This document shows positions 5,482 through 36,592 of a stretch of 36,592 nt of DNA, one piece after another. Position 1 is the first letter of the stretch. The number at the start of each line of letters is the position of its first letter. The notes under the pieces are model-generated. The model was given only the letters and a program-made list of their open reading frames with translations, searched no databases and had not been told where the DNA came from. Made by a program: the position numbers and the translations under genes. The DNA comes from Clostridiales bacterium (GTDB lineage: Bacteria > Bacillota > Clostridia > Christensenellales > Pumilibacteraceae): contig JAFLVF010000009.1 of NCBI GenBank assembly GCA_022508425.1, positions 1 to 36,592 of the forward strand. The letters run 5' to 3'.

Positions 5482-8070
5482 CTATAGCACTGTATCGATC
5501 TTGATAGACGTCACTTGGCCGTTGTTGTCCAGCGTAAATGTGAAGCGGTACGTGCCAGTCTTGGTACAAGTCAAATCGTTGCTTAACATCGCCTTGGTTA
5601 TCGCGCCGTCGGTATTGTTGGCGGTGACTTGGAAGAACGAAGCCCAACACACCTGCTTGGAACGGGAGTGCAAAGTTGTCCTGATACCGAAATCAAGCCC
5701 CTCTGTAAGTGCAAAGTCAAACGTGATTGTACCCGCCGTTCTGTTGTATGCGGCAATTCTGTTCTCCCAAGACGCAGTGAACGAACCGTGGATGTAAATA
5801 TCGTACGCCAGCTTGATGTTCGCCGCTTCGCCGTGGCGTACAAAAGTCAGCCTCCTCGTGGATTCGTTCAGCGTAATGGTGTAGTTTCCGCTGGTAACGA
5901 CAACGATATTATTGTCGTTCTTGCCGTCAAGCTCGTTACTGCTTGTAAAGTATTTGGTGCTGCCGATATTGCCGTCGAGGTTTTGATAATTGTACTCGCC
6001 CGTCCACCCGTTGCCGGCCTTGAGTATCTTGAACTGGTTGCCCTCGTACAAATCGACCGTAATCGAGTATATGCCGTCGCCCATTTTTCTAAGGTGCACG
6101 TTGTCGGGTATCAAGCTGACGCTCGCAATGGTTTCCCATCCAAGCTCCAGCGCCGCGGCGGCGCCCACCATGTAGTACGGAGAACTGTCTACCAATTCGC
6201 CGGTGTCCGGAAGATTGCCTGTCGAGTTGCCGTCAATCCACAAATCCTTGTAGTCGATGCTTGACGTATCCGTAGTGCCGTAATTGTAATAGATTGTATA
6301 TGTTCCTGCGGCAACGATAATATTCTTTCTGTCCAAAGACAGCTGGGCCTTGACCGTAGGCTCCATTCTGAAATGGGCGATATCGACGGTCTTGCCGCCG
6401 AGCACTATCGTCATCTCCGTCGTGCCGCCCGAGCCTATTACAACGTCTTTGGCCATAACTTCAGGCTTGGCTATATTTTGAGTGATGGGTTTTATCTTGG
6501 TTGTTCCGACATAAATTCCGTCGTTATCTCGGATATCCGCCCTCTTGATTTCCTGAATGTAAACGATGTTGGAGGAATATCTGTAGAGAACGTTTATTAT
6601 CGAACCGGATATGTCCGCGCCGTTTGCAAGCCTAAGCATCTTGTCGGGAGTCAACACTACCTTGTCCGTGCTGTACTCGTCGCGCGTAATATTGACAATC
6701 AGTTCGCCGTTGTACCAGAATTCGAGCGCGACGTCCTCTCCTCTGAAGTCTATATCGTACGCCCAGATGTCTCCTGCGCTCGGGGGGTTGAACTTTCCTC
6801 TCAGTTCGCCGTCCATCCAGATTCCGTCGCCTCTTATGATAGCCGTATCGTAATGTGCGTGCAACGTTCTTGCGCCCGGAGTTCCTGTAAACACATAGTT
6901 CGTGTCCACTTTCTCGCCGCCATCTTTCTCGGTGTACCAACCGACAAACATAAATCCCGCCGGAGCGAACGGCCTGTACGGCATTCTTTCAAGCTTCTTG
7001 CCGACGGTCATCATTACCGTCGCTTCGGAGAGCGTGCCTTTGCCGGCGTCGAATGACACTATGAATTCCACCAACAGATACTGCGCGTAAATTATTTCGA
7101 TATTAGAGTAGTCGGTATCGGCATCCACTTGAACGCCGCCCGTTTTCTCGGTAAACCAGCCGACAAACTCGTACCCCACAGGGGGCGTGGGCGTAGGCAA
7201 CTCGCCCAGCTTCGCGTCGGTTGTAAACATTTCCTCGATATCGCCGGCTATAGTGCCGCCGTTGGCGTCTATCGTAACAATGTACTCTCCCTCTTCCAAA
7301 TAGAGCGCATATATAGTACAATCCGAGCTGAACACCGTGTTCGATTTGACTCGTTTGCCGCCCGTCTTTTGAGTGTACCAGGCCACAAAGGTTTTGTCCG
7401 TGGGCACCCCTGTGGGTGTAGGGAGCGCTCCCGACAATTTACCGTTAACGGTAAGGCGTGATTCCTCGTTGATTGTGCCGACGCCCGCATCAAACGTAAT
7501 CAAGTATTCCTGAATATAATGGGCGTACACTGTCACTTCTCTCGTTTCGCCGGTAAACTCGTAGCTTGTATCCACTCTCTCGCCGACCGTCTTCTCGGTG
7601 TACCAGCCGACAAACGTGCAGTTGTTAGGCGGAGTGGGATCGGCGGGCAACGCCAAAAGCCTGCCGTCCACCGTTTCCATGTTCTCCGTGCCCGCGGCAA
7701 GCGTGCCGCCGTTTCCGTCAAACGTAACGTAATACTCTGTCGATTGAGTTTCGCCCCATTTCGCGTGAATGATACAGCTGAACGAATACGTGTAGTCTAC
7801 CGTAAGCCTTTCGCCGTTAAACACCGACGAGAGATACCAGCCGAGGAACTCGGTGTTCTCCTTGTACGGCGTGGGAAGTGACGCGAGCTTTCCGTCCGTC
7901 GTCTCCGCCGACGTCGGGCTGACGGTGCCGCCGTTGGCGTTGAAAGTTATTTGATACACGCCGTCGCCTGACGAGGATGACTTGTTAGAGCATGCCGAAA
8001 GCAAGCCGCAACAAGTAGTAGCAAGCAGCACAACGACCAGAATGATTGCCGTCAACTTTCTTATCTTCAT
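5482..8070 (-). CDS. Lipoprotein with five Listeria-Bacteroides/InlB B-type repeats and C-terminal carbohydrate-binding-like beta domains
   Basis: 862 aa; signal peptide with lipobox 'LLSAC'; five units of the type 'Y.VTFDGNGGTL...LP.DPTPP....FVGWYTEKTGG..VD'; C-terminus resembles SusE/F or CBM-like sandwich domains (tentative). Confidence 0.85.
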   Translation of the reverse strand: MKIRKLTAIILVVVLLATTCCGLLSACSNKSSSSGDGVYQITFNANGGTVSPTSAETTDGKLASLPTPYKENTEFLGWYLSSVFNGERLTVDYTYSFSCIIHAKWGETQSTEYYVTFDGNGGTLAAGTENMETVDGRLLALPADPTPPNNCTFVGWYTEKTVGERVDTSYEFTGETREVTVYAHYIQEYLITFDAGVGTINEESRLTVNGKLSGALPTPTGVPTDKTFVAWYTQKTGGKRVKSNTVFSSDCTIYALYLEEGEYIVTIDANGGTIAGDIEEMFTTDAKLGELPTPTPPVGYEFVGWFTEKTGGVQVDADTDYSNIEIIYAQYLLVEFIVSFDAGKGTLSEATVMMTVGKKLERMPYRPFAPAGFMFVGWYTEKDGGEKVDTNYVFTGTPGARTLHAHYDTAIIRGDGIWMDGELRGKFNPPSAGDIWAYDIDFRGEDVALEFWYNGELIVNITRDEYSTDKVVLTPDKMLRLANGADISGSIINVLYRYSSNIVYIQEIKRADIRDNDGIYVGTTKIKPITQNIAKPEVMAKDVVIGSGGTTEMTIVLGGKTVDIAHFRMEPTVKAQLSLDRKNIIVAAGTYTIYYNYGTTDTSSIDYKDLWIDGNSTGNLPDTGELVDSSPYYMVGAAAALELGWETIASVSLIPDNVHLRKMGDGIYSITVDLYEGNQFKILKAGNGWTGEYNYQNLDGNIGSTKYFTSSNELDGKNDNNIVVVTSGNYTITLNESTRRLTFVRHGEAANIKLAYDIYIHGSFTASWENRIAAYNRTAGTITFDFALTEGLDFGIRTTLHSRSKQVCWASFFQVTANNTDGAITKAMLSNDLTCTKTGTYRFTFTLDNNGQVTSIKIDTVL

Positions 8071-8419: not shown

Positions 8420-9322
8420 CTACGCATTTACATTGTTGTCGTTTGTCGCGGCCGCTTCCGCTTGCGCCGTCTTATCCACTTCTTCTATCTTAAACGTGCG
8501 CGTGGTGCCCGACACAATGCGCTTGACAAGCCCGCGCTGCATAAACGCCATGTCGCCCTCGTAAGGAATGAAGAAGTCCTGCGCCTCGTAGTGAGAATTT
8601 TTGTAAACTTTCAACTCCTTCATCATGCCCGCAATCATCTCCTTGGCGTACTTGACTCGACGCGGGTTCTTGATGCGGTACATCGTGGGCGTATCCGCCA
8701 TGCTGGCGATATTGGAAATATCGTCAACAGAGAATTTCGTTCCGTTGTAGCCCGCAGGCTCGACGGCAAGCAACAAGCTCAACGTTTTGCCGCGCACAAT
8801 GAGCTTGGCGATGACCATGCGGCCGACGCGGTATGTTTCGCGCTTCCAGCTCATGCGGTCCTTGACCTTTTCGTACGAAAGCAATTCGTTCTTCAGCTCC
8901 GAATACCATTCCTTGGATTCGCGGCTCAACTGGGAAAGCTTGGCGGTAAGACTGCGGTTGTATCTGACGCGCTCCGTACCCTCGGTAACATATGTGGGCG
9001 TGTCGTCGTCCTCCTCGTCATCGTCCAGCTCGGGCTCGGGCTCCGGTTCGAGCTCGGGCTCGGACTCAGACTCGACCTTCACCGCGTCGGGCGGAACGTC
9101 GCCCTCCGTCGCCTCGCCTTCCGCTACGCCGGTGTCTGCCGAAACGGCCGGCTGCTGCGCGTGGTCCTGTGTATTATAGTTCTGCGTAGGCGCCATTACT
9201 ACCTTGACGACGGGCGCGCGCTTGCGCAAAGCGATTATGAACACAATGCCAAGCACCGCCAAAAGTACGACAAAAACGATCAGAACGACCATTAATATCA
9301 AAAGCATGGTTTTGTTATCCAT
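8420..9322 (-). CDS. Membrane-anchored protein: N-terminal TM, acidic Glu/Pro/Asp linker, cytosolic uncharacterised domain
   Basis: ATG 9322 (MDNKTMLLILMVVLIVFVVLLAVLGIVFIIALRKR) with SD AGGAGGTATAAGGAAA; linker 'ESESEPELEPEPEPELDDDEEDDD'. The track start at 9346 is probably too early. Confidence 0.8.
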   Translation of the reverse strand: MDNKTMLLILMVVLIVFVVLLAVLGIVFIIALRKRAPVVKVVMAPTQNYNTQDHAQQPAVSADTGVAEGEATEGDVPPDAVKVESESEPELEPEPEPELDDDEEDDDTPTYVTEGTERVRYNRSLTAKLSQLSRESKEWYSELKNELLSYEKVKDRMSWKRETYRVGRMVIAKLIVRGKTLSLLLAVEPAGYNGTKFSVDDISNIASMADTPTMYRIKNPRRVKYAKEMIAGMMKELKVYKNSHYEAQDFFIPYEGDMAFMQRGLVKRIVSGTTRTFKIEEVDKTAQAEAAATNDNNVNA

Positions 9323-12300
9323 TTTCCTTATACCTCCTAATAGCAAAGATGATTACGACGACTGCGAACGCGCAGGCGACTACTCCTAAAATAATATCTA
9401 TCAGCATGAACGTGTTGTCAAACGCCGGCGCTATAGTAAACTCGTAACGCGCCTCCAGCGTTTCGTAACCGTCAAGCTCTACCCGTGCAATCATGATATA
9501 GCGACCGGCGGCCGTGGGTCTGTCGGTTAGGAAGATGTCCGGCCTGTCTTTGTTAATATAGATGTACGTAATTTCGCCGTACGTGGCGTCGCCTATGGGA
9601 TTGGGGCTGTTGCCGCTGAATTCCTCAGACCAGCTCTCGATGCTCGGCGACGAATCCCCGACCCAAGAGTTTTTGGAAAGCGCGACCTCGAACATCATTT
9701 CGCTTGTAATCGTCTGCGTATACCGCGCGCTTGCATAAGCCACGACAATATACTTGCCTGCGACGGTGGGAATCTGCGAGCCCAAATCTCTGCGCGTCAA
9801 TGCGTCGAGATATCTGTATGTAATCTTGACGGTGTCGTCGCCTGTCAGGTTTGTTCTCGCCGTAGGTCCGGCCCACTTCGCTCTCTCGCCGAGATACAGG
9901 ACGGACGAAATGCGCACGCTCTGATCCCATGCGATGACGCGGTCGCGTATGGTGAACATGATTCGGCTTGAATGATTGACGCCGAGATAATCGTTGCTGT
10001 TAGATTCGTTTTCCGCATAGGACAGCATGAAGTACGTGCCGGGTGCGGTGGGAATATAGAATATCCGCGCATATTTTCTGCTGTTGTCGACAGTGAACGA
10101 ATCTTCGCCTTTTTCAACTTTCTCTTTTAGCTGATACTCGTCGTTCTCGTACACGGCCTTGTAGAACTCGAAGTACGGCAATCCGCGGAAAGGCAACCCT
10201 GTGGGCATGACGACCGTTTCATCGATGTTGGCCGTCCAGCCTTCTATGCTGGGCACCGTTACCCAGAAGTTTTGATCGCTGTTGACGAACACTTGGAACT
10301 CTATAATTTCCTCTAATCCGCCGTACTGATCGGGTATGCCGTTGACCGTAACCGTCATTTTGTACCAACCGACTTTGGCGTCGGCGAGTCTGTCGTAGGT
10401 CTCTTCCACGCCGGTGTATCGGTAGAACATTTCGCCCGTATCCTTATGCCTGATCACAATATTAGGCTTACCGTAGAGGGCTGTTGCCGTCGGCGCATTC
10501 ACGTCGTCGTTGTAGCTGCCGAAATACCAAGCGGTAATCTTAGGCGTTTCCACCCAAGCGTTTTTAGCCTCGGTGACAATGAACGATGTTTCGTACTCAA
10601 ACGCATCGTAGTTGTCTCTTGCAGCTACGTACAAACGCAACGTGTACGTGCCTTGCGTCAGCTTGTTGAGCTCGGCGGCGATCTCCGGCTCTACGTATTT
10701 GTCCTGTGCAAAGCTGCCGGTGTGAATACCTTTGCCTCCTACGTCGTTAAAGAGCTGGAATTTTCGGAACAGCGCCGCCCCGCCTTCATGACCTTCTCTA
10801 ACCTCGAATCTGACTTCGCCGAGCGATACGGGCGTGCCCGTAAACAGGTTGTTTTTCTCGTCGTAGTTGTTCCACGCCCAATCGGTGACGCCGGGCGACG
10901 CGGAGAACTCCCTGTTGGTCACAGGAGAAATAGTAAAGAATACGGTCTTGGTCAAAGCCTTGTAATTGTCGGTACCGACGACTGAGAACACCGCCTTGTA
11001 ATCGCCGACGGTGGAGGGCATTGCCGTCCAATTCTCGCTGCCGTTTTCGGTGCTGTAGGTTACCGTAGCGTTACCGAAATAGGGCGCGTAATTGACGACG
11101 ATGTTAGAGCCGTACACCCAACCGTTTGATACGTCTTGCGTACCCATGAAGAACGCGGGGGCGGTCGTCCACCTGTTGGTCGCTTGCTCGACTTTGAAGT
11201 TAACCGTCTTGGCAGTGTCGCCGCTGAGCGATTTGTAATTGGTCTGTTCGTTGACGGTGGCCGTTATTGTATACTCGCCCACTCCCAGCCTGCATAGCTC
11301 GCTTATAAGCGCGGCTCTGTCATTTGTATTGATATTCTTCCCGTCGGTGCCCGTTACGAAAGCGACTATGACGGTAAACTCGGGAGTAATCCCGCCTTTT
11401 TTGTACACAGCAATAGATACGGAATCGCCTTGCTTGGCAATGGGTAAAATCAAGTGAGTGTCTATATCTCTTGCGAACTCGCTCCATATCCAATTTGATA
11501 TAATCAAGTCTACACCGTCGCCGGATTCGTTCTCCAGCCATTCGTTGTTTGCTTTTTCGATTACGAGACTTACCCAGCTCTCAAGACCGCTGTACTTATA
11601 GTCGGCGTCGACGGTAGCATAGATAAAATACGTTCCGGCGCTCAAGCCCTTGATATAATTGCCGAGGTTGGAGTACGAAACGATCTCGTACTGTGATACA
11701 GCGCCGCCTATTCCTACCAATCCGACTCTGACGACCATCTTGTCGCCGTTGTATTCGGCCCCGAACTTGATGACGGGAGCAGTCTCGCTGCCGTAAGTCC
11801 AAGAAATCGGCACGGCGCTGTCGCGGTCTGCTCCGCCCGAGTTTTCGTTTTGCTTCCAGCTGTTCGCCTTTACGCTTATTATTATAGTAAGAGTGTATGT
11901 AAGCGCTGCGTGATTGTCGTCGCCGTCGATTTCCGCAGTCACGACGTACGTATCTGCTTCACACTTTTTGAGCTCGGCCAACAACGCCGACCAAGAACCG
12001 CCCGAATACAGCGAACCGGACGCATTACTGGCTCTGAGCGTGTAGACGGCAGTCTTACCCCAAGAAGCGGAACCCAATTTCGGCTCCGGCAGGTCGCCGC
12101 TGTAATCGTAGTCGTACGGCTTGTTGATTGTGGTTTTGTCGGTACTATCGGTCGTGTTGTCCCATTTGGGCGCTATCTTGTCGACTTGAATCGTGCGAGT
12201 AATGTTCTGAGGTGCGCTGTAATTAACTGTTTTGGCAATAGCAAAAGTTATTGTATATTCACCTGCGCCCCATTTCGCCATATCCTCTATCAAGGCGGCG

Positions 12301-15300
12301 TATACGCGCTCTGCAAGCGACCTTGTATCCGTCTCGAGTTGAGACATTCCCTCAGGATCTTTATAATCCTCCGCGCGGAACGTTCTGAATACGCTACCGC
12401 CCTTTGTAATTGTGTAAACTATAGTATCGTCGCCGAAATTGGCCTTAGGTCTCTTCAGCTTTTCCGCGTCAAACGAGCCGTAAGTCCATGAGGTGCTGGC
12501 AAACAACGTGCTTTCGTCCCATAGGGTGACGGAAGGATCTATGTTGACATATATATAATCGATTACGGTTGCATAGTTCTCACACGTCACGGTATATTCC
12601 ACAATATACTCTTTTTCGCTGGCGTCTCTTGAACGAAGGTCTTTTAACATTTCTTCGAAATCGGTGTACACCTTAGACCACGTGGAGTCGAAGCCTATGC
12701 GGTAAGTAATAACCGCGCCATCCTGCGCAACCTCTATTTCGTTGAATATTTTCTTATCGTTATTTCCCCATTCCCATTTAATTCTGTTGCCGCTACCGCT
12801 ACCGTCGCCGGGTTTAACGGTAATATCGGGTTTGGCAAGCTTGACGTTGGCGCTTACGTTCTTTTCAATCGACGTAGCGCCCGTTGTGTCAACCGCAACA
12901 GCAACCACAATACTGTATCTGGCCACTTCAAGCGCCTTAAGAGCCGCGAAAAGCTCGCTGAAGTCGCCCTCTGCTTTTCCCGCTTTAACAGTCACGTCCA
13001 CCGTTATTGTGTGGAGAACGGCGGTGCCGAGTTTGACGGTGTAAATCAATCTGAAGCTGTTGATATCCTGATTGTTTTCGGTAGCGACAAGCACGTCGGT
13101 AATGTTGGAAAAATCGGGATCGGTGTTAGTCAGCTCCCATTCTATATCATCCGGTTCCCTCACCCATTTGATTTTCTGCGGATCGATATTAAAGTAAACG
13201 GGCGTAACAAGATCGTCGTAGTTTTCGTTGCCCTTTAACGTTACGACCATTGCATAGTATCCGGCAAGCGCGGACGAAATATCTGCTACATGACTGCCGT
13301 AATCCACGCTCGAAATGCCACTTTCAAGCTTCGCGCCGTAGTATGCGTACGTAATTTCGTTGCCCGTATCGACGGTGGCTTCGGGCGTATTGTGGGAAGA
13401 CGGAGTGTTGCCGAAAGTCCAATCGGGAATAGTGGGGGCTGTCTTCCAACTGTTTTGCGCCTTCTTTACGGTAAAGCGCAAATCCTGCGAAACCGCAGCG
13501 TAATCATCCGTCGCTATAACCTCCGCTCGCAGGTTGTAGCTACCGGCATTCAGTCCCATAAGCAACGAACCGTCATCGCCGCAAAGCTTACTTGTAAGAT
13601 CTTTCTTTGTCAAATTGATAAAACCGGGGACTTTGCCCGATGCCGAAACACCGCCGTCGCTGTCTACCGTGTAAACGGTGTACACAAACGTACCGTATCT
13701 GGCGGTGCCTTCGGTCAACAAAGTGTCCGGAAGGCTGTCATTATACGTCCATTCGGTTTGCATTGTAGCGCCTGTTTGCAAGCTGTTACCTGCCTGCGTA
13801 ATGTTAAGCAAAATGTTGACGCTCAAGCCGCTGTAGTTAGTGGTGCCGGTAAGACTTACCGTCAAAGTATAAGCGCCCGCATGCAGTTCGTTAAGCGTGT
13901 CTACCGTTGTTGCGGTAAGCTTGCCGTATTCGTCGATCTCCAAAGTCCACGTCGAATTTTCGACAGCCATCGACGTGTCGGAGGTCTTTATACCCTTTGT
14001 CAATACATAGGTTATCTTTTTGTCTTTGTCCTCGTTGAACACTGCGCCTGCGGCACGGAAATTATTGTTGTCGGTCTGGAAATTGTTGTACTGCCAACCG
14101 ACGAGAACGGGCGCCGGATTCCAGTTATTCTCCGCAATTGTCACATTGAATACCATTGACAGCCTAAGGTCGGCATAATCGTTCGTACCCTCCAGCTCCG
14201 CGACAAGCGTGTATGTGCCGACGGGGAGAGCTGTGAATTTGTCCGCATACGTGGTTTTCCCATCCTCGCCGGTGAGCGCCGTTATATCTGTAAAGTGGTC
14301 GTCCCACAGCTGTTCGGTAGTGCCGGTGCCTTTGTATAAGATATATTCCACTTTCTTCCCTTCGGTATTGCGCTCCGCTTTACCATTTTGGAAGTTTGTT
14401 TTTACGTCAAAGCCTTTGTACGCCCAGCCCGTCATGAACGGTGTTTGCGTCCAACCGTTGTCAACCTGCGCGACGCTGAAATATATCGACAACGACAGCG
14501 CGGAATAGTCGGCAGTACCCGTCACCTCCGCAACGAGCTTGTATTGAGCGGCGCCCAATGCTTTGAGCTTACTTCTGACGATGGACACGTCTGTGATGGG
14601 ATCATCACCCCACTGCTTGGTCGAGGTATTTTGTCCGTTCTTATTTTCTTCCTTAAACAAGGTGTACTGTATAACCGCACCTTTTTTGGGGAACGTTGCC
14701 CCGCCCGCGGTGAAGAGTCTTTCGTCGTAGCTGCCGAACGTCCAACCGATAACAGACGGCGTCGGATTCCAGGTGTTTTGTGCCTGAGTTACGTTAAACG
14801 TCATGTCCAACGACAGCTCGGCGTAATCGGTAGTTCCCGCGTAAGACGCGACGAGCCTATATTGACCGGCGCCCAAACCGCCGAGCGTGCTATTAACGGT
14901 TACGTCGTCGACAGGTCCCCACTGCTTGGTCGATGTGCTTTGTCCGTCTTTTTCTTCTTCTTTAAACAGAGTGTACTGTACCTTTACGCCGTCGGTGGTA
15001 AATGCTGCCTTGCCCGCGGTAAAGAGTTTTTCGTCGTAGCCGCCGAACGTCCAACCGATAACAGACGGCGTAGTATCCCAGGTGTTGTTCGCCTGCGAAA
15101 CGCGGAACGTCATGGAAAGCGTCATATCGGCATAGTCAACATTACCCTTCAAAAACGCGACCAGCGTGTACGTGCCGTAAGGAAGAGCCTTGAATTTGTC
15201 CGCATACGTGGTTTTTTCATCCTTGCCGGTGAGTGCCGTTATATCGGTAAAGTGAAACTCTTCCGTAGATGAGGATGTAATTTTATCGCCTTGGTACAGA

Positions 15301-18300
15301 GTGTATATAACAGCGTTGCCGGTAGCGTTAGCGGCAATGCCCGCGCGGAAGTTGGTACCCGCAACGAAGCTCGTGTACGCCCAGCCCGTCATAAACGGTG
15401 TGGTATCCCAAGTGTTGTTCGCCTGCGAAACGCGGAACGTCATTGACGCAGACAGCGCGAAATAATTGGTGCCCTCGTCTATATGCGCGTAAATCGTGTA
15501 AGTATCGGGATGCAAATCTTTTTTAAAATACGTAACATCGTCGTCGGACATTTCGTATTTGACTTCATTATTCGCTTCGACCTTCGTAACGGTAAGAGGG
15601 CGCTTTACAATACCGGAGGCAGAGGTGTCGGTGCCGACGTACAGCTTGTACGTAGCGCCTTCGGTGTTGAAGTTTGCTATACCGCCCTTGAATATGTCCT
15701 TGCTGAAAGTGCCGAACGTCCAACCGACTATGGACGGCGTAGTGGTCCACGTATTTTCCGCCTTTGCCACGCTGAATATCATGGAAAGCGACAAATCGCC
15801 GTAATCGGCGGTGCCCTTGTACGACGCGACAAGCGTATACGTGCCGGCATCCAAAGCCTTAAAATACGCCGCGTCATCGTCGGACATATCGTATTTGTCG
15901 CCGTCGGCTTTCTTCGTTACGGTAAGAGTGCGCTTTACAATACCGGAGGCAGAGGTGTCGGTGCCGCTGTACAGCTTGTATTCCACCTTTTCGTCCGGCG
16001 TGTTAAAGTAATTGGGCACGCCCGCTTGGAAGTTTCCGCCCTCGCCGCTTAAAAAGCCCTGATAAGTCCAACCCAACATGCGCGGCGTAGTCTTCCAACC
16101 GTTTTCTGTCTGCGACACATTGAAGAATATATTTTGCGACAGCGCCGCATAGTCAGTCGTGCCCGCCACCGCTGCGACGAGCTTGTATTGTCCGGCGCCC
16201 AATGCCTCGAATTTACCTTGGACGGTTTCGTCTATCGAGGTAAACGGATCTTTCCACAGCTCGATCCAATCATCGTCTTCGCCGCCGTCTGCGGATACGC
16301 CGTCGACAGCTTCGTCATCTTTTTCTTTGTAAAGCTTGTATGTAACAACCTGTCCGTTGTCGGGGAACCTCGCCACGCCCCCTTGGAAGTTGCTCGTGCT
16401 AAAGCTTCCGTATGTCCAGCCTATCATATACGGCGCTTTCGTCCAGCTGTTTGCGGCCTGCGCCACGCTGAAGAATATATTTAGCGACATATCGGCGTAG
16501 TTGGTCGTGCCCTTGTACGACGCTACGACCGTGTATTGCCCGACGCGTAAAGCTTTGAAATCGTCTTCTTTCGTCGACACGTCGGTAAACTCGAATTTCT
16601 TCTTCGTCGTATCCGAAGTATCGGTGCCCGAATACAGCGCGTATTTCACCGTTACGGATTCGCCATCTTCGTCCTTTGTATCAAAGTAAGTGGGTTCGCC
16701 CGCGTGAAAGTTGCTTAAATTGAAGCCTTGATACGCCCAGCCGATTACGTACGGAACATTTTTCCAACTGTTGGTGGTTTGGTTTACGGTAACTTCTATG
16801 TAGCTGCCGGCATAGAATTCGTTTACGTTATTCTCAAACGGATTGTCTTCTTCTTGCGCGGCGTCGTCTTGCTCGGCCCCTCCTTGCTCGCCCTTATCGA
16901 ATTTTCTCTGATTCTTAATGGCCGGAACGTAGCTGTCAAGATAGTATGTGCCGGCGTCAAGCTGATTGAGCGCTTTGGCAACCTTTTCGCTTACTTGGTT
17001 TTTGTCGTCTACGTTAAAATAAGTGCCCTTGTCGTCAAACGTACATACGACAGCGCCCTCCTCGCCATCCTCTATTTTCAGCCATTCGTATTGGTCGGCG
17101 CCTTCGACGCCGCTCTTTTTGCGACCTAAGCGGAACTGCACTTTATCCTGGCTGTCGAGGAACTTGAGATCACCCGTTATAATATTGTCTTCTTGGCTAA
17201 AGCCGTCGTAGTACCAGGACGGTAATTTAGGCGCAACCGTCCACTCGTTGTTCGCAGGGGTGATGGTGTAATAAACGAGCAAATCATCACCTTCGATCTT
17301 AAAGTAGTCTTTGTAATATTTTTCAAACCAATCCCCACCTTCGTTGGAGTGAGGGAGCTTGCTCGTATCCCAAAATGTGTCCGTCTTGTTTCGCAAAATG
17401 AGCCTTATATAAGCCACGCCGACGTTCTTGTAATCCATACCATCTTCTTTGTCGGGCGAGGCGTCATAATAAGAGCTTACATAGGCCGTAGACAGAACAT
17501 CATTTCCGGTATATGTGCCGCCGTGGTAATATATGCCGCCCTCTTGCTTCATCAAGTCGTAAATTTCTTTTACGTCAGCGCCGTCGAACATCCATATATT
17601 AAAGCCGTAATGTTCGAAATCTTTGGAATTGGCGCCGCCCACATAAGCGTAGTTTTTAGCGTAAATGCTGTAATAAACGTCGTAAGTTTTGGGTGTTGCG
17701 AACGAACCGGCAATTTCTTTCTCGCTGAAATCGGCACCGCCGGCGTAGCCGTCGCCGCGGCTGTACATTATCGTAACCTCGGTGTCATATAACTCGGCAT
17801 TCTCCTTGTCGGATATTGTCTTCCAGTATCCTATGCGAGACCCCTTTGTGGTATATTTGAGAGTGCCGTTAAGCTTGGCAAGCGGACTGACTCCGCCGTC
17901 ACCTGCGACCGTAATGTCGTCGTGCAATGTTTCTGCGCCCAACGGGCGGGAGTTGCGGTAGTCCCCTTGCCCTTTGTTAACCTCTTGACCGCGTATCACG
18001 TCGTGCAAATCGGAAAGAGCTTCGCTGTCAAACGCCTTGGGCAAAACGTAAAGTTTATATTCGCCGGTCACCGAATGGTTTCCACTGTCGTAACTCATGT
18101 AAACATACAGCGTGTACGTACCAGCGGGCATACTCTTGTTTATATAGTAAGCGATGGTTTTTTCCGGACTATCTTTGGCCGCGCCATTATCGCTATGCGT
18201 CCACTTATTATCATTTTGCTTATCTTGCACCCAAGTTACCACGTGAAGGAGCTCGCCCTTCTCTTTTATGGTCGTTTTTGCGCCGTCGGGCGACAGATAG

Positions 18301-19640
18301 TCTATTTTAAACTGCATTTCTACGTTTGTTACGCCGTCGACCTTGATTCTGGGCTCGTTGATATAAATATCGTCACCGTACGTTATGGTATCGAGTATGG
18401 CAAACGCGTCTCCGCCCGGTTTTGCAAAGTCTTCGAGAGTATAACCGTTTTTACCGTCAAAGTTAGGTGAGCCTTCATCAGTTGAGCTACTGATAAAAGT
18501 TTCATCATCGGGCCTATATGCAAACGGAACGTACGGTTCGTTGCCGTTTTTGTATCCCGGCAAAGCGATCATCTTGTCGCCTTTGACTATGTACCAGTAT
18601 TTTTTAAGCACAAAAGAAGTTGTCGTTCTGGTTTCTTCGGGCACGCTCAAACCCCTATAGCTTTCGCTCAGGGCGGATTCGTTGGTATAGTCAAATATAT
18701 AATTTTCGCTTTTCGAAATGTTATAGTTGTCATCCGCAAAGTTAAACTGGAATGAAGCAACATATTCGCCCGAGTCGCCAAAAACGGTACCGGACCTATT
18801 TGTAATTCTGATTTTAATCTCCTTGCCGTCTGTAACGTACAAATAGTTCGAGTAAGAGGTCGAAGATGCTGTGTCAGGATAACGAGTTGGTTTTAATGAA
18901 TCGGTACCGAAGAGCGAGCTTTTGGGGTTTTCGGTGGTGAGATCCTCGCCCATTATCATTATCGGTATATTCTTGCCTGAAGAATAAGAATAATAGGAGT
19001 TTGTGATAGTTCTGGTATTGACGACAGAGTTGTTATCTATCTGCGCCGCATACCAACCGTTGTTGTGCTGATAGATTGTGGTAATATCGCCGTGCGCGGC
19101 GTAGCCGGTGATTGCTTGAGAATACGTAGGGCCTCGGTTGGTAGGCGTTGTGGCATTTGTAAATGCGTTAATGTCGTTGACGTTGACATGAACAACCTGG
19201 GAGTCAAGAACGACAATATCGTTGTAAGGCTGCGCGTCCGCCGCCAAAGGCTCTACTTCAAACTCGTATTTGCCGGCGTTCCTTATGCTTGTCGTTTTGT
19301 CCGTGCCGTCCTTTCCGCTCGGATATGTAAACTTAGTCAGAGTAACAATGTATTCGTCGGGATCGAGTCCCAGAACGGTGTGGTAATCTATGAACTCGTC
19401 TTCTTTCTCGCCGAGAGTGTATTGCTTGCCGCCGATAGTGTACGTCTGACCGAAGGTGAAATGCTTTTGCCCGTCCGACGTGTGATCGCCTATGACCGAG
19501 GACGGGGCGCCGTCGTTGACCGTGCTCTTTTGGTTCTTTGCAAAACATAAAAATGCGCCTATGCCAATGCACAACGCCAACACGCATATGATAATTATCG
19601 AGACAATAAATCTCTTTCCCCTCAATTCGGTTTTGCCCAT
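9315..19640 (-). CDS. Giant bitopic surface protein with ~24 divergent Ig-like/MBG-like repeats
   Basis: Open frame 9315..19715; likely ATG 19640 (MGKTELRGKRFIVSIIIICVLALCIGIGAFLCF) with SD GGGGGAGTGATGTG. Repeated motif 'NxWxxxPxxxGWxYGxF...AGTYTLVAsvkGTxdYadLsLsmxFxVxqA'. C-terminal TM 'MLIDIILGVVACAFAVVVIIFAIRRYKENG'. Confidence 0.9.
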   Translation of the reverse strand: MGKTELRGKRFIVSIIIICVLALCIGIGAFLCFAKNQKSTVNDGAPSSVIGDHTSDGQKHFTFGQTYTIGGKQYTLGEKEDEFIDYHTVLGLDPDEYIVTLTKFTYPSGKDGTDKTTSIRNAGKYEFEVEPLAADAQPYNDIVVLDSQVVHVNVNDINAFTNATTPTNRGPTYSQAITGYAAHGDITTIYQHNNGWYAAQIDNNSVVNTRTITNSYYSYSSGKNIPIMIMGEDLTTENPKSSLFGTDSLKPTRYPDTASSTSYSNYLYVTDGKEIKIRITNRSGTVFGDSGEYVASFQFNFADDNYNISKSENYIFDYTNESALSESYRGLSVPEETRTTTSFVLKKYWYIVKGDKMIALPGYKNGNEPYVPFAYRPDDETFISSSTDEGSPNFDGKNGYTLEDFAKPGGDAFAILDTITYGDDIYINEPRIKVDGVTNVEMQFKIDYLSPDGAKTTIKEKGELLHVVTWVQDKQNDNKWTHSDNGAAKDSPEKTIAYYINKSMPAGTYTLYVYMSYDSGNHSVTGEYKLYVLPKAFDSEALSDLHDVIRGQEVNKGQGDYRNSRPLGAETLHDDITVAGDGGVSPLAKLNGTLKYTTKGSRIGYWKTISDKENAELYDTEVTIMYSRGDGYAGGADFSEKEIAGSFATPKTYDVYYSIYAKNYAYVGGANSKDFEHYGFNIWMFDGADVKEIYDLMKQEGGIYYHGGTYTGNDVLSTAYVSSYYDASPDKEDGMDYKNVGVAYIRLILRNKTDTFWDTSKLPHSNEGGDWFEKYYKDYFKIEGDDLLVYYTITPANNEWTVAPKLPSWYYDGFSQEDNIITGDLKFLDSQDKVQFRLGRKKSGVEGADQYEWLKIEDGEEGAVVCTFDDKGTYFNVDDKNQVSEKVAKALNQLDAGTYYLDSYVPAIKNQRKFDKGEQGGAEQDDAAQEEDNPFENNVNEFYAGSYIEVTVNQTTNSWKNVPYVIGWAYQGFNLSNFHAGEPTYFDTKDEDGESVTVKYALYSGTDTSDTTKKKFEFTDVSTKEDDFKALRVGQYTVVASYKGTTNYADMSLNIFFSVAQAANSWTKAPYMIGWTYGSFSTSNFQGGVARFPDNGQVVTYKLYKEKDDEAVDGVSADGGEDDDWIELWKDPFTSIDETVQGKFEALGAGQYKLVAAVAGTTDYAALSQNIFFNVSQTENGWKTTPRMLGWTYQGFLSGEGGNFQAGVPNYFNTPDEKVEYKLYSGTDTSASGIVKRTLTVTKKADGDKYDMSDDDAAYFKALDAGTYTLVASYKGTADYGDLSLSMIFSVAKAENTWTTTPSIVGWTFGTFSKDIFKGGIANFNTEGATYKLYVGTDTSASGIVKRPLTVTKVEANNEVKYEMSDDDVTYFKKDLHPDTYTIYAHIDEGTNYFALSASMTFRVSQANNTWDTTPFMTGWAYTSFVAGTNFRAGIAANATGNAVIYTLYQGDKITSSSTEEFHFTDITALTGKDEKTTYADKFKALPYGTYTLVAFLKGNVDYADMTLSMTFRVSQANNTWDTTPSVIGWTFGGYDEKLFTAGKAAFTTDGVKVQYTLFKEEEKDGQSTSTKQWGPVDDVTVNSTLGGLGAGQYRLVASYAGTTDYAELSLDMTFNVTQAQNTWNPTPSVIGWTFGSYDERLFTAGGATFPKKGAVIQYTLFKEENKNGQNTSTKQWGDDPITDVSIVRSKLKALGAAQYKLVAEVTGTADYSALSLSIYFSVAQVDNGWTQTPFMTGWAYKGFDVKTNFQNGKAERNTEGKKVEYILYKGTGTTEQLWDDHFTDITALTGEDGKTTYADKFTALPVGTYTLVAELEGTNDYADLRLSMVFNVTIAENNWNPAPVLVGWQYNNFQTDNNNFRAAGAVFNEDKDKKITYVLTKGIKTSDTSMAVENSTWTLEIDEYGKLTATTVDTLNELHAGAYTLTVSLTGTTNYSGLSVNILLNITQAGNSLQTGATMQTEWTYNDSLPDTLLTEGTARYGTFVYTVYTVDSDGGVSASGKVPGFINLTKKDLTSKLCGDDGSLLMGLNAGSYNLRAEVIATDDYAAVSQDLRFTVKKAQNSWKTAPTIPDWTFGNTPSSHNTPEATVDTGNEITYAYYGAKLESGISSVDYGSHVADISSALAGYYAMVVTLKGNENYDDLVTPVYFNIDPQKIKWVREPDDIEWELTNTDPDFSNITDVLVATENNQDINSFRLIYTVKLGTAVLHTITVDVTVKAGKAEGDFSELFAALKALEVARYSIVVAVAVDTTGATSIEKNVSANVKLAKPDITVKPGDGSGSGNRIKWEWGNNDKKIFNEIEVAQDGAVITYRIGFDSTWSKVYTDFEEMLKDLRSRDASEKEYIVEYTVTCENYATVIDYIYVNIDPSVTLWDESTLFASTSWTYGSFDAEKLKRPKANFGDDTIVYTITKGGSVFRTFRAEDYKDPEGMSQLETDTRSLAERVYAALIEDMAKWGAGEYTITFAIAKTVNYSAPQNITRTIQVDKIAPKWDNTTDSTDKTTINKPYDYDYSGDLPEPKLGSASWGKTAVYTLRASNASGSLYSGGSWSALLAELKKCEADTYVVTAEIDGDDNHAALTYTLTIIISVKANSWKQNENSGGADRDSAVPISWTYGSETAPVIKFGAEYNGDKMVVRVGLVGIGGAVSQYEIVSYSNLGNYIKGLSAGTYFIYATVDADYKYSGLESWVSLVIEKANNEWLENESGDGVDLIISNWIWSEFARDIDTHLILPIAKQGDSVSIAVYKKGGITPEFTVIVAFVTGTDGKNINTNDRAALISELCRLGVGEYTITATVNEQTNYKSLSGDTAKTVNFKVEQATNRWTTAPAFFMGTQDVSNGWVYGSNIVVNYAPYFGNATVTYSTENGSENWTAMPSTVGDYKAVFSVVGTDNYKALTKTVFFTISPVTNREFSASPGVTDWAWNNYDEKNNLFTGTPVSLGEVRFEVREGHEGGAALFRKFQLFNDVGGKGIHTGSFAQDKYVEPEIAAELNKLTQGTYTLRLYVAARDNYDAFEYETSFIVTEAKNAWVETPKITAWYFGSYNDDVNAPTATALYGKPNIVIRHKDTGEMFYRYTGVEETYDRLADAKVGWYKMTVTVNGIPDQYGGLEEIIEFQVFVNSDQNFWVTVPSIEGWTANIDETVVMPTGLPFRGLPYFEFYKAVYENDEYQLKEKVEKGEDSFTVDNSRKYARIFYIPTAPGTYFMLSYAENESNSNDYLGVNHSSRIMFTIRDRVIAWDQSVRISSVLYLGERAKWAGPTARTNLTGDDTVKITYRYLDALTRRDLGSQIPTVAGKYIVVAYASARYTQTITSEMMFEVALSKNSWVGDSSPSIESWSEEFSGNSPNPIGDATYGEITYIYINKDRPDIFLTDRPTAAGRYIMIARVELDGYETLEARYEFTIAPAFDNTFMLIDIILGVVACAFAVVVIIFAIRRYKENG
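14733..15966 (-). repeat. Near-identical DNA repeats inside the giant gene
   Basis: Exact 30-nt match 14733-14762 = 15042-15071 (309 apart); 41-nt match with one mismatch 15073-15113 / 15403-15443 (330 apart); exact 37-nt match 15600-15636 = 15930-15966 (330 apart). Confidence 0.9.
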
Positions 19641-19759: not shown

Positions 19760-19787
19760 ATTATATCAAATCTATCGCGATTGTCAA
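19760..19787 (-). promoter_or_regulatory. Consensus sigma-A/70 promoter for the giant surface-protein operon
   Basis: Minus strand TTGACA (19787..19782), 16-nt spacer, TATAAT (19765..19760); predicted 5' UTR about 110 nt. Confidence 0.82.
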
Positions 19788-24151: not shown

Positions 24152-25732
24152 TTATTTTTCTGTCTTTTTCGATTCCGAATTATCCGATTTGGAGGAATCG
24201 GGTTCGTCTTGGTTCTTCTTCTTGAACAGGCCCTTGACCTTGTCGACAAACTTGCCGAACAAGCCTTTTTCCTGCTGAATAACGACTACGTTGTCCTCGT
24301 CCAACTTTTGCGTGTTGTCGATTTCCTCGTACTCGAAGTAATCTTTGTTTATCGCCTTGAGCGTGGATTCGTTGAAGAAACGAGTGTGCGCCGGATCTAC
24401 GGCCACGTCAACGGCGTCGCCTATTCTCACCTGGAATTCACTGCTAGTCTTGGATATGACCTTTGTTTCGCCGACGTTGCCGTACAGGTTGATTATATCG
24501 CCGAGCATCTCTATGTGCGTTACGTCATACTTGAAAGAATGCGCCTTGAAGCGATCGAATTTCTCGTCCTCTTTGTAAATTAGATTTTCGGGACGAATGC
24601 CGTAGATAAGCCGCTTGCCCTCGTAGTTTTCCAACAGCTTTTGCTGATCCTTGGTCAGCTTGATCTTTACGCAATTGTCGGTTATGTCCTCGCCGTTAAC
24701 CTTGACCGACTTGATGACATATCCGAAGTCCGGCGTAACGGTAAGCTGAATCTTGGTGCCTGCCGCAGCAAACTCGGCGCTTGCTGTCACCTTGCCGTGC
24801 GCGGACGGCATGATAGTAACGGGGTGCTGGTAGGGAGTCTTTGCCTCGCCGACCGCGGGCTCCGCCTGCGCGGGAACTTCGTCAAATTGCTCGCTTCCGT
24901 CGGGAACCGATTTTTCGAATTCGGCTTCGACCTTGACTTCGCCGTCGGGCATGGTAAATACTTTCGCGTCGGACACAAACACGTCGCCGTGCTTCTCGCC
25001 GTGGAAGATATTCATAGCGGGCGTGCCTATAAACCCTGCCACAAACACGTTTGCGGGGTACTTATAAAGCTCGTCGGGCGTGGCGATTTGTTGGATAATG
25101 CCGTCCTTCATTATGACTATTCTGTCCGCCATTGTCATGGCCTCGATCTGGTCGTGCGTGACGTAAATGGTGGTAGCGTTGACCGCCTTGTGTATACGCA
25201 CAATCTCCGACCTCATAGCTACGCGCAGTTTGGCGTCGAGGTTACTGAGCGGCTCGTCCATAAGGAAGACCTTGGGCTCGCGAACGATAGCGCGACCGAG
25301 CGCAACGCGCTGGCGCTGACCGCCGGAGAGCGCACGAGGCTTTCTGTCGAGGTAGGGCGTCAGCTTGAGAATATTGGCCGCACCGCGCACGCGCCTGTCG
25401 ATAACGTCCTTGGGCACCTTGTGCAGTTTGAGCGAGTACGCCATATTCTTGTACACTGTCATCTGCGGATACAGCGCGTACGACTGGAACACCATCGCTA
25501 TCCCTCTGTCCTTGGGCGCGACGTTGTTGACGAGCTGACCGTCTATGTACATTTCGCCGGTGGAGATTTCCTCCAAGCCGGCTATCATGCGCAGTGTTGT
25601 AGACTTGCCGCATCCGGACGGACCGACGAACGCTATAAACTCGTTGTCCGCGATATCTATATTAAAATCATGAACGGCATGAACGCCGCCGTCGTAGATT
25701 TTGTTGATGTTTTTTAACTGAATAGTAGCCAT
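24152..25732 (-). CDS. Carbohydrate ABC transporter ATP-binding protein (MsmK/UgpC-like) with inserted module and C-terminal tail
   Basis: Walker A 'GPSGCGKST', signature '[36 protein letters not shown]', H-loop '[17 protein letters not shown]', '[11 protein letters not shown]', 'GIRPENL'; 526 aa, much longer than canonical MsmK. Confidence 0.93.
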
Positions 25733-25733
25733 T

Positions 25734-26690
25734 CTATTTTCCTACCTTTATTATATTTTGTCTTAAACCCATGGCCGCAATGGCGCCGTAGTTGGTTGTC
25801 GTGTAACTTCCGCACTTGCAAGCAAACTCAAGCACGTCGCGATAGTCAAAGTTATAAATATTGTCCGCCGTTACGCCGAGGCGCATCAGCTCGGCTATCA
25901 GCCCGCCGAAGAACGAATCGCCCGCCCCCGTCGTGTCGACCGCCTTGACCTTGAATCCGGCGCAATCATACGTCTTGCCGTCGCTCAAGTACAGTTTGGC
26001 GCCGTGGGCGCCGCGCGTCATGGCAAGCATCTTCGCTCCCATGCCCAAAAGAGTCTCGGCGCCGCTGTCGGCATTGCTTTGTCCGGTAATGAACGCCAGC
26101 TCGTCGTCGCCCGCCTTGATTACGTCCGCTTTGCCCGCATAGTCGAGCACAACTTGCCTTAGTTCGTCTCGATCATTCCACAGGTTAAACCGCAGATTGG
26201 GATCGAAACATACGAGCGCGCCGCCGCGCTTTGCCTTGTCGATTACGTAATCGTGCGCGGCTCGGGACTCGGCGGTACTCAACGCGACGCTGCCGAATTC
26301 CAGCATGTCGCCGCGGTCGAAAACCACTTCCGAGAACTGCTCGGGCGTAAAGTAAAGATCGGCCGCCGTCTTGCGGTAAAAAGCGAATTGCCGCTCACCG
26401 CCCGCGCCGAAACTTACGAACGCAAGCGACGTGTCGTAGCGGTCGTTCTTGCGGACAAACCGAGTGTCAACGCCCTCGCCGTTAAGCGTGTCTATAAGGA
26501 ACTCGCCGAATGCGTCGTTGCCTACTTGTGAAAGGTACATGCAGTCGCAGTCCAGTCGTTTTGCCTGTACGCAAACGTTGGCAGGAGCGCCGCCCGCTTT
26601 TTTTACAAACTCGTCGGTGTCTTTGAGCGCACCGCTGCCCTTGGACTGAAAGTCTATAAGCAGCTCGCCCATACACACAAGCTTACTCAT
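25734..26690 (-). CDS. PfkB-family carbohydrate kinase, fructokinase-like
   Basis: 318 aa; 'GELLIDF', '[36 protein letters not shown]', '[18 protein letters not shown]'; next to GH32 genes. Confidence 0.9.
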
Positions 26691-28209
26691 AGAAGGAAAT
26701 CCCCTTTACCGTCGCCTTTGCTCCGTTGGAATAGAACGCAAGGCCCTTCTTCTGAATGCCGACAAGCCGCATTGACAGAGCGACCTCGTTGTTGAAATAC
26801 AGAACGGCAATCTCGCCGTCTATGATTATATCAACTCCGTACTCTTTGTCCTTAGCGAAGGTGTAGTCGACATATGTCAGCACGTCGCCGTAGCGCAAGA
26901 TGTTGCCTACGTCGTTGTAGCAAGCGATACGGTTGTTGGCGGTGTCGAAGCTGATCACCTTATTGCCCAGCCTGTTGTCGTATACGCCGTCAATGCCGAA
27001 CGTAACACCCATCTCGCCGAGCTCGTCAAACTTCATTGTGAAGTGCATTCTCGTGATGTTGGTGGAAAGCGCGTCCAAGCCGACCGCGGTAAACTTATCG
27101 CCCGCAAACGACGCGTCGGACACCTTTTTGCCGTTTGTGCCGCGGTATTCTACAGACGTAGCAAACGCGTTCTTTACGTTGTTGACCATCACCGCCTGAA
27201 GCTCGCCCGTGTTGGCTTGCTTGATCTCGTGCACAACAAGGTTGCCGCCCCAATCAAACTCGCCTACGTCGCCGCCGGTCAGCTTTGCGCACCAGGCAAA
27301 TGCGTACAGCTTGTCGCCCGCTTTTTCCAATCTTCCGGCATAGAAGCCCGTGCTGTCTATCTTGTCGCGGCCGAACTTCTTCCACTCGCCGTTGCGCTCT
27401 GTCTTGTACCTATAATGCGTGACGCGGTTTAGACCGGAGCTCTGCTCGCTGTAGGCGAGATACCAAAATCCGTTGTGCTCGATATACGACGGGCACTCCA
27501 TGTTATACGTGCCTGCGTCGTTCTCGAAGAAAATGCCTTCGTCCGTCCACTCGTCCGCCGCCGCGTCCAAAGAATCGGCCTTGTACTGTTTGATTACGCC
27601 CTTGTCGTTCGCCCTGGTGGTGACGAGCATATAATAGCATTCGTCCGTCGCGTCGTAATAAACGTACGGATCGCGGAAGTCGTCGCTGTTGCCGAACATC
27701 ATGAAGTCATTGTCCTTTGACCAGGTCTCCTGATTGTCGGTGCTTACAGCATGGCGAATCGCCTCCATGTAGGGAAGCCCGGTAGCGCTCGGAGAAGCGT
27801 GACCGGTGTAGAAGCAGTGGTACTTGCCGTTCTTGTCCTTGATAAACGAGCCCGTGCCGAGCGCCGCGTCGATGGACGAGATTTTTTCTTCGAAGTTGAT
27901 AGCGATGCCCTCGTCCTTGTACGTCACGTAGTCGGTTGTGGTAAGCCGAGAAAACGGATGATAGAACATATATTGCGCACCCACTTTGTCCTGCAATTGG
28001 TAGATGTTCATGACGCCGTCGTCATAGAACGGCATAACGTCGCCCATGTACAGCGTAGATCCGTCCGCATGCGACGAAATGGGGAACACGTTTTTGTTGC
28101 CCTGATCGATCTTGCCCTTGTTGCTCTCGGGTTGTTTCTCCGAGCAAGCGGCAAGCGGAAAGCACAACACAGCCATAGCCGCCATCAATATTGCCTTGAT
28201 CTTTTTCAT
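26683..28209 (-). CDS. GH32-type (fructanase-like) lipoprotein
   Basis: ATG 28209 'MKKIKAILMAAMAVLCFPLAACSEK' lipobox; 'GDVMPFYDDGVMNIYQL', 'DDFRDPYVYYD', 'MECPSYIEHNGFWYLAYSEQ'; overlaps the upstream stop by ATGA. Confidence 0.8.
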   Translation of the reverse strand: MKKIKAILMAAMAVLCFPLAACSEKQPESNKGKIDQGNKNVFPISSHADGSTLYMGDVMPFYDDGVMNIYQLQDKVGAQYMFYHPFSRLTTTDYVTYKDEGIAINFEEKISSIDAALGTGSFIKDKNGKYHCFYTGHASPSATGLPYMEAIRHAVSTDNQETWSKDNDFMMFGNSDDFRDPYVYYDATDECYYMLVTTRANDKGVIKQYKADSLDAAADEWTDEGIFFENDAGTYNMECPSYIEHNGFWYLAYSEQSSGLNRVTHYRYKTERNGEWKKFGRDKIDSTGFYAGRLEKAGDKLYAFAWCAKLTGGDVGEFDWGGNLVVHEIKQANTGELQAVMVNNVKNAFATSVEYRGTNGKKVSDASFAGDKFTAVGLDALSTNITRMHFTMKFDELGEMGVTFGIDGVYDNRLGNKVISFDTANNRIACYNDVGNILRYGDVLTYVDYTFAKDKEYGVDIIIDGEIAVLYFNNEVALSMRLVGIQKKGLAFYSNGAKATVKGISFYE

Positions 28210-29579
28210 ACAGGTACTCCTATTTGTTTTATCGTAATATCCTTGACGTTTCCGTCTGCCAATAGTGTAAACCGCCCGTCTATATATATTCTGCTGCTGA
28301 TAATCTCTCTGCCGCCGTCCACAAAAACCTCGACGCACGAAGAGTCCAGCAAAATTCTGACGTCGCACTTTTTATAGGCTCCGTTCGAGCGGCGGATACA
28401 ACCGTTGCCGTTGTTGGCGTTGATAGTATCCAAATACACGCCGCCGTCGTTGCCTACGACTATCTGTCCGTTGCCGCCCTGCAAAATCAATGTGCCGACG
28501 CCGTCGAACGTAGCCTCGATGTTCGCGCACTCGGGGATGGTGCCGTTGATATCGACTCGCTCTCCCAAGTATTTATCAAGCGAAGCTACCGGCTTTTGGA
28601 TAACGTCGCCGTCGCGTATCTCAAGCTCGCGCGGGATTGTAAACGAACCTACCCAGCCGTGCTCCATGTCGCGCGTAGGGTACGGTTTGTTCCACATCTC
28701 CTGCCATCCTACCATTATGGGTTTGTCAATGTTGTTTATCACCTGCGGCGCGTAGAAAGCGTCGCCTTTGTCGATTTCTTTGATGAAATCAACATGCATA
28801 CAGCCGCGCTCGAAGTCGATCTCGCCTACTACGAACACGCTGGCGTGCGTGTTCTTGTAGTCGTTGCCGCATTCGACAACGTGACTGCCCGAAACAATCA
28901 GAACGTCTTTCCCGTCAACTTTGGTATAACACGGGCACTCCGCCATATCGCCGAGCGCGTCGAACGGCCCGATGGTAAAGTCGTATTCGAGCTTGTCGAG
29001 CGAATGCCCGCTCAAGACTACCACCACACCCTTGTTCGTCTCGATATCCCTACCGCCCACAAACACGTAAAACTTGTCGTTGTGCATAATGGGAAATGGA
29101 TCGCGGAAGTCCGATCGGCTGATGTTTTTCGGCAACGTCTCGTTGTTAAAGACCGAATGGTGTTTCTTGACAAAATCTTTGCCGTCGACGCTCTTGGCCA
29201 TGCACACCTTTTCTTTCTTGACGTCCGATATTTCGTAATGTCTGGTGTACAGGATATTGAGCGCTCCTCCGGCGACGACAGCGCCGCCGGAGAAACAGCT
29301 TATTTCGTCTTTTTCGGTAGGGGCAAGTGCAACGCCTACGTCGGTATACGATATCAAATCGTCGGATACAAAGTGCCCCCAATGCATCACGCCCGGCTCC
29401 GCGCCGTACGGATTGTATTGGTAGAACAAATGGTATGCGCCGCGATAATGTACCAATCCGTTGGGATCGTTCATCCATCCGATAGGCGCCGTCATGTGGT
29501 ATTTCGGTCTGAACTTGCCGTTTACCGACGTGACGTTTGCCTCGATATAGTCGTTTGCCTGTTTGATACTGTATGCCAT
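28206..29579 (-). CDS. GH32 sucrose-6-phosphate hydrolase / beta-fructosidase, cytoplasmic
   Basis: 457 aa; 'YHMTAPIGWMNDPNGLVHYRGAYHLFYQYNPYGAEPGVMHWGHFVSDDL', 'FRDPFPIM', 'ECPCY'; no signal peptide. Confidence 0.95.
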   Translation of the reverse strand: MAYSIKQANDYIEANVTSVNGKFRPKYHMTAPIGWMNDPNGLVHYRGAYHLFYQYNPYGAEPGVMHWGHFVSDDLISYTDVGVALAPTEKDEISCFSGGAVVAGGALNILYTRHYEISDVKKEKVCMAKSVDGKDFVKKHHSVFNNETLPKNISRSDFRDPFPIMHNDKFYVFVGGRDIETNKGVVVVLSGHSLDKLEYDFTIGPFDALGDMAECPCYTKVDGKDVLIVSGSHVVECGNDYKNTHASVFVVGEIDFERGCMHVDFIKEIDKGDAFYAPQVINNIDKPIMVGWQEMWNKPYPTRDMEHGWVGSFTIPRELEIRDGDVIQKPVASLDKYLGERVDINGTIPECANIEATFDGVGTLILQGGNGQIVVGNDGGVYLDTINANNGNGCIRRSNGAYKKCDVRILLDSSCVEVFVDGGREIISSRIYIDGRFTLLADGNVKDITIKQIGVPV

Positions 29580-29597
29580 TGCAATCCTTTAATCAGA

Positions 29598-31625: not shown

Positions 31626-31650
31626 GATATTTATCTCCTATGGATTTATT

Positions 31651-33979: not shown

Positions 33980-33988
33980 TACGCTATA

Positions 33989-35611: not shown

Positions 35612-35640
35612 CTTTTATTCCTCCGAAATAATTTTTTATT

Positions 35641-36567: not shown

Positions 36568-36592
36568 ATGCTGTTGCCCGAAAGCTTTTTGG

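Follow-up and report, generated by a model that had tools for sequence, protein, structure and literature searches.

A giant Ig-like repeat protein of a Clostridiales bacterium and its overlapping partner gene encoding a distant relative of DUF5655

Several described systems can be set beside the giant surface protein considered here. Giant1-5 of Apilactobacillus kunkeei are extracellular proteins of 3,000-8,000 aa with many imperfect repeats (50-366 aa, several of ~100 aa) and a distinct N-terminal head, and they carry a signal peptide, a beta-solenoid head (Giant1-4), a DUF5776 C-terminus and, in Giant1-3, alpha-helical repeats (PMC12863079). Compared by description only, our giant resembles them in size, in its many imperfect repeats and in having an N-terminal head, but differs in the signal peptide, the beta-solenoid, DUF5776 and the alpha-helical repeats. 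Sortase substrates, as set out in a passage of PMC4155245, end in an LPXTG-like motif, a hydrophobic domain and a charged tail. The sortase-anchored LPXTG fibrillar adhesins of Gram-positives share with the giant a head, a repeat stalk, a C-terminal hydrophobic segment and a basic tail; however, no sortase was detected in the giant's own genome or genus, and a retained transmembrane segment (TM) and a cytoplasmic partner are proposed for it instead. RTX adhesin extender domains (PDB 6xi1) and cadherin arrays likewise form tandem stalks of Ig-like beta-sandwiches, although the likeness is at the fold level only and the giant has other anchoring and secretion. The gliding ‘leg’ proteins of Mycoplasma mobile (Gli349) offer an analogy, without any claim of homology. 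For the gene that follows the giant, the relevant family is DUF5655 (PF18899), whose matches known here are proteins of ~305 aa, one part of which weakly resembles NucS, and which is mentioned in no paper of the open PMC literature searched.

The window, meaning the whole stretch of 36,592 nucleotides that was analysed, comes from a MAG of a Clostridiales bacterium of the Pumilibacteraceae. An earlier note had placed a giant repeat gene at 9315-19640; these coordinates are correct, and the strand, which that note did not give, is minus. TMs were called from hydropathy, not with a trained TM predictor. The giant gene has the following features.

9315-19640, minus strand: giant gene, 3,441 aa (ATG at 19640, stop at 9315-9317)
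19760-19787, minus strand: candidate sigma-70-type promoter, TTGACA-16-TATAAT with extended -10 (a consensus-perfect match only)
19542-19598, minus strand: N-terminal TM or signal anchor, aa 15-33 (hydropathy and positive-inside rule)
17250-19523, minus strand: head, aa 40-797, ~760 aa (28-41% identity to orthologues)
9420-17249, minus strand: array of 24 Ig-like units, aa 798-3407 (iterated HMM and manual segmentation)
13788-16772, minus strand: units 2-10, canonical and most alike (unit-to-unit identity)
14463-15086, minus strand: two adjacent units modelled with AlphaFold2
9420-9962, minus strand: membrane-proximal region, aa 3227-3407 (orthologue comparison)
9339-9395, minus strand: C-terminal TM, aa 3416-3434 (hydropathy), then cytoplasmic tail RRYKENG

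The reading frame is intact, with no internal stop across its 3,441 aa, and the candidate promoter lies ~120 nt upstream of the ATG. The N-terminal TM is preceded by the K/R-rich segment MGKTELRGKRF (N-in), and the positive-inside rule predicts that all of the repeat region is extracellular; the ectodomain comes to ~373 kDa with a pI of 4.6. Searches with the whole giant return no Pfam match at E<=1 and none in NCBIfam either. The head has no Pfam match and no usable match among PDB sequences, the best being a de novo design at 0.037. The best-conserved part of the protein is aa 3227-3441, comprising the membrane-proximal region, the TM and the tail, with 45-75% identity to orthologues versus 27-34% for the central units.

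The repeats, which the earlier note had put at about 24 by eye, are real. Manual segmentation gives 24 units, starting at aa 798, 957, 1064, 1180, 1296, 1409, 1519, 1622, 1728, 1838, 1952, 2063, 2157, 2281, 2372, 2493, 2593, 2699, 2822, 2909, 3027, 3124, 3227 and 3324. An HMM iterated from nine seed units finds 19-20 of them at E<=1e-3, rising to 21 at E<1e-4 once the units of relatives are added, and 20 shuffled copies used as a control gave nothing below E 0.08 in any iteration. The units are divergent and vary from 84 to 159 aa in length. The impression that the central units are most alike and the C-terminal ones more divergent is borne out by best-pair identities of 35-64% for units 2-10 (13.79-16.77 kb) versus 29-40% for the C-terminal units, and the motifs read by eye (an opening N-x-W...P...GW-x-Y/F-G and a closing G-x-Y-x-L-x-A...NY...F-x-V-x-x-A) are right for the canonical units. 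The units are old protein-level duplications, since TRF finds no DNA-level tandem repeat in the array; the same result rules out an assembly artefact or a DNA-level tandem repeat as their source. Within the order, 48 of 151 genomes contain units of this kind; of 298 other genomes of the phylum, 5 gave weak matches. As a separate observation, open frames of 11,687-12,526 aa in other families of the order (G034:C29, G121:C89, G103:C1) also contain MBG_3 or unit matches.

Structure prediction and profile comparison can be combined to say what the units are. Using a shallow alignment of 60 unit pairs, drawn like our other AlphaFold2 alignments only from loci gathered in this analysis, AlphaFold2 models two adjacent units as Ig-like beta-sandwiches (mean pLDDT 94.0, pTM 0.81). 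Foldseek with this model returns the RTX-adhesin extender 6xi1 as the best match, then cadherins, titin Z1Z2 and Sap S-layer, with E 5e-5 downward and TM-scores of 0.2-0.4 over two domains, a likeness at the fold level only. Searches of the units against PDB sequences yield marginal matches, several of them to Ig-like domains. Among 71 single units from the genus scanned against Pfam, a strong match of every unit was not found: Big_3_5 (PF16640) was reached by 12 (best 6.5e-7) and MBG_3 (PF18887) by 4 (best 0.0025), all below the curated cut-offs. The consensus unit matches Big_3_5 at 3e-6, again below the cut-off, and in the curated cut-off test for MBG_3 and Big_3_5 it scores 28.2 bits against 35.5. 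The earlier suggestion that the closing half is MBG-like agrees with hhalign: the 71 units align with 13 MBG_3 members at prob 95.5 and E 1.4e-8, with only the last ~33 columns covered. The same note held that the W...P...GW opening fits no nameable family, and this part is not supported: a unit with a GWTYG opening from another family of the order (L182; ‘LALDGWTYGQSANTPRAMTNFGEIVYTYS...NAGTYTVKATVENSDNWIGTSVSATFTIAKA’) aligns from end to end with Pfam MBG_3, at 30.0 bits against a gathering score of 25. Because this unit passes MBG_3, the consensus matches Big_3_5 and the model is Ig/cadherin-like, the units are best described as divergent MBG/Big-type Ig-like repeats, a new subfamily and not a new kind. 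They share with those families the closing half GxYxxxAxVxGTxNYxxLxxxxxFxVxKA, but the units of the window have a greater length, 84-159 aa compared with 72-88 positions in the Pfam models, and begin with NxW...P...GW; no window unit that was tested passes a Pfam gathering score. A search of the organism's own genome for MBG_2 (PF18676) found nothing.

The C-terminal TM and the gene coupled to it go beyond what the earlier note had observed, and we find them more interesting than the repeats themselves. The features of the partner gene and its junction with the giant are listed below.

8420-9322, minus strand: partner gene, 300 aa, directly after the giant (TM, acidic linker, basic DUF5655-like domain)
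9315-9322, minus strand: 8-bp overlap ATGGATAA of giant stop and partner start (read from the sequence as translational coupling)
9333-9338, minus strand: partner ribosome-binding site AGGAGG, inside the giant's last codons (RRYKEN)
9233-9289, minus strand: partner TM, aa 12-30 (hydropathy), then ALRKR, placing the C-terminal side in the cytoplasm
8972-9214, minus strand: partner acidic linker, aa 37-117 (net charge -23)
8495-8971, minus strand: partner cytoplasmic domain, aa 118-276 (net charge +14; AlphaFold2 pLDDT 90.6, pTM 0.83)

AGGAGG or close variants of it occur at the giant/partner junction in many relatives, and the domain is basic in all 34 that were aligned (pI 9.2-10.2). Foldseek with the domain model gives YjbR (2fki) and YdhG (DUF1801; 2oc6 and 9t2w) as the best matches, with DUF419-type entries also among the best; the scores are modest (prob up to 0.99, E 0.02-0.3, TM 0.42-0.57), those behind the YdhG/YjbR-like assignment being prob 0.99-0.96, E 0.02-0.04 and TM 0.42-0.54. 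An independent line of evidence points the same way. Elsewhere in the phylum, a profile search finds only ~305-aa proteins of one kind, and the single one that was scanned has Pfam DUF5655 over the matching part. These DUF5655 proteins align with the partner domains in hhalign at prob 97.4 and E 9.5e-12, yet Pfam DUF5655 is absent among the matches of the 34 domains even at E<=1. Since 0 of 34 reach the Pfam model, the partner domain is a distant DUF5655 relative with a YjbR/YdhG-type fold and not a Pfam member. It further differs from DUF5655 proteins in being membrane-tethered and strongly basic, in its acidic linker, and in its coupling or fusion to giant surface proteins. The partner has no usable match among PDB sequences, with FliL and a ribosomal protein appearing at E>0.3. 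An NCBIfam identity as FliL or teichoic AuxB, suggested for the partner or a paralogue, was rejected, as it covers only the TM and linker and falls far below the cut-off. The label ‘Frataxin-like iron chaperone’ was likewise set aside; it is suggested by the fold class alone (YdhG entries are so named), and nothing here supports iron.

The pair is not confined to the window. Related giants in the genus, 2,465-4,018 aa long and built of about 15-35 units, likewise have an overlapping partner gene behind them. More broadly, of 60 genes for a TM plus the domain, 36 lie directly after an ORF of at least 1,000 aa that in most cases has a TM at its end; among 254 control genes only 4 do so (p 9e-27, a value that overstates independence because several of the 60 loci, taken from named public genomes, share one genome and the species are related). 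No giant lies upstream in the other 24 of 60, some of which are cut by contig ends. The pair is present in cultured Pumilibacter muris (L129) and in Anaeroplasma-type genomes. Single-chain fusions of 1,000-4,200 aa also exist (L029-L032, L035, L036, L207-L214, L216), in which an N-terminal TM, a large ectodomain, a second TM and the domain follow one another; such fusions are a classical sign that two separate proteins act together, and they suggest as much here. The domain has other uses, because it is also fused behind SipW-like signal peptidase I (L042:6234-8465, minus strand; L024:562-2025; L028:154-2292) and TM-plus-domain genes lie directly downstream of spoIVA (L110, L114, L116). The Gallimonas loci L118, L122 and L136 have neighbours of about the same size. 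In the SipW-like fusions, TIGR02228 is above its cut-off in 2 of 3, and up to three domain copies occur, in L028. In two TM-plus-domain proteins (L107, L112) the C-terminal segment resembles ribosomal protein L15, matching Pfam Ribosomal_L27A at about 1e-10 and TIGR01071 below its cut-off; this hints that the basic domain may be connected with RNA or ribosomes. The organism's own genome has a second copy of the cluster (G000:C122, L045), with the giant's 3' part (1,274 aa, to the contig end), a partner 72% identical and a lipoprotein, and a third, degenerate domain copy (G000:C118, L166) that is preceded by a TM and a lengthy charged linker.

The third gene of the cluster encodes a lipoprotein.

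5482-8070, minus strand: lipoprotein with five List_Bact_rpt (Flg_new) repeats (profile scan)

The closest relatives carry a ~60% identical homologue next to the pair, as does the second cluster in the organism's own genome. Further along the window, a probable fructan-use cluster spans 24152-36592, with an ABC ATPase, a fructokinase, two GH32-like genes, two lipoproteins, one of which has InlB-type repeats, a sugar-binding protein and a permease; here only the lipoproteins were profile-scanned, and the other genes are named from sequence.

The question of anchoring can be approached through sortase. A search found no sortase in the organism's own genome or in any of the 18 other genomes of the genus, and control genomes were positive. 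Across 297 genomes of the order, counted with the same settings, the domain is present in 139 and sortase in 103, and no genome has both (48 would be expected); about 55 have neither. At the family level the domain occurs in 11 families and sortase in 18, and one family alone (f29) holds both kinds of genome, its single sortase match being weak (3.9e-4). The exclusion follows family lines, and a single ancestral switch could account for it. No LPXTG-like motif precedes the C-terminal hydrophobic segment of the giant, where the sequence reads FTIAPAFDNTF. Penicillin-binding transpeptidases are present in the organism's own genome, so a cell wall is expected. Anaeroplasma, by comparison, is wall-less, and the occurrence of the pair there, outside the order, fits an anchor that needs no wall.

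Taken together, we favour a reading, with a probability of roughly 60%, in which the giant is a fibrillar, membrane-anchored surface protein and the coupled partner supplies its cytoplasmic domain, the two forming a split transmembrane anchor or receptor in bacteria that lack sortase anchoring, where it would do the job that sortase has in others. The giant, a putative adhesin, would be exported through its N-terminal signal anchor and retained by its C-terminal TM, with the head held off the cell by the stalk of ~24 Ig-like units. Given ~4 nm per Ig domain, 24 units would by estimate give a reach of roughly 100 nm. Hardly any of the giant itself lies in the cytoplasm, and the partner may provide the intracellular half; coupled translation would supply it in proportion to the giant, and the two TMs may then pair in the membrane. 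A flexible acidic spacer would carry the basic domain in the cytoplasm, where it may hold the fibre by way of a cytoplasmic polyanion or partner, or report binding.

Other explanations must be weighed against this one. The giant could be an ordinary Ig-repeat adhesin sitting on its own TM, with a downstream gene that is co-transcribed but functionally unrelated. Long Ig-like adhesins are common, the giant by itself has a head, a stalk and an anchor, and the domain is found away from giants too, but the start-stop overlap with giants recurs (36/60 vs 4/254) and the same domain is fused behind the TM of large surface proteins, so that we consider this account unlikely. Alternatively, the giant's C-terminus (FTIEPAFD, hydrophobic stretch, RRYKEN) may be a tripartite sorting signal, with cleavage of the giant and its attachment elsewhere carried out by a transpeptidase or exosortase-like enzyme that has escaped recognition. 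In its favour, the motif, the TM and the basic tail are all strongly conserved, their layout matches that given for sortase substrates in PMC4155245, and no classical sortase was detected in the genome. However, the ribosome-binding site of the partner accounts in part for the conservation of RRYKEN, other paired giants have tails of 20-165 aa after the TM, and the fused forms run on into a large cytoplasmic domain, which makes cleavage of this kind quite improbable.

The giant could also be a scaffold that captures polysaccharide for the adjoining glycogen and fructan genes, as glgA/glgC-like, GH32-like and sugar-ABC genes and the List_Bact_rpt lipoprotein are its neighbours in the window. 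Among the neighbours tested in relatives, though, only the lipoprotein and, in one locus, uppS recur beside the pair; the glg and GH32 genes do not, and the giant has no Pfam carbohydrate-binding module. A role in a glycogen/fructan operon was therefore rejected as the main reading, the synteny not being kept, and a scaffold of this type strikes us as very improbable.

The split anchor or receptor can be extended to a wider proposal, which we put forward as possible but doubtful. The tethered DUF5655-like domain may define an undescribed, sortase-independent system that holds giant surface proteins and couples them to the cell interior, as split pairs or as fusions, taking the place of sortase across a large clade of gut Clostridia and also present in wall-less Anaeroplasma-type bacteria. 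If the split anchor or receptor is correct, it would provide a mechanism for the display of very large surface proteins in a large, mostly uncultured, sortase-less gut clade, as well as the first context-based function for the DUF5655-like fold. As a cultured isolate that has the pair, Pumilibacter muris leaves the idea open to bench testing.
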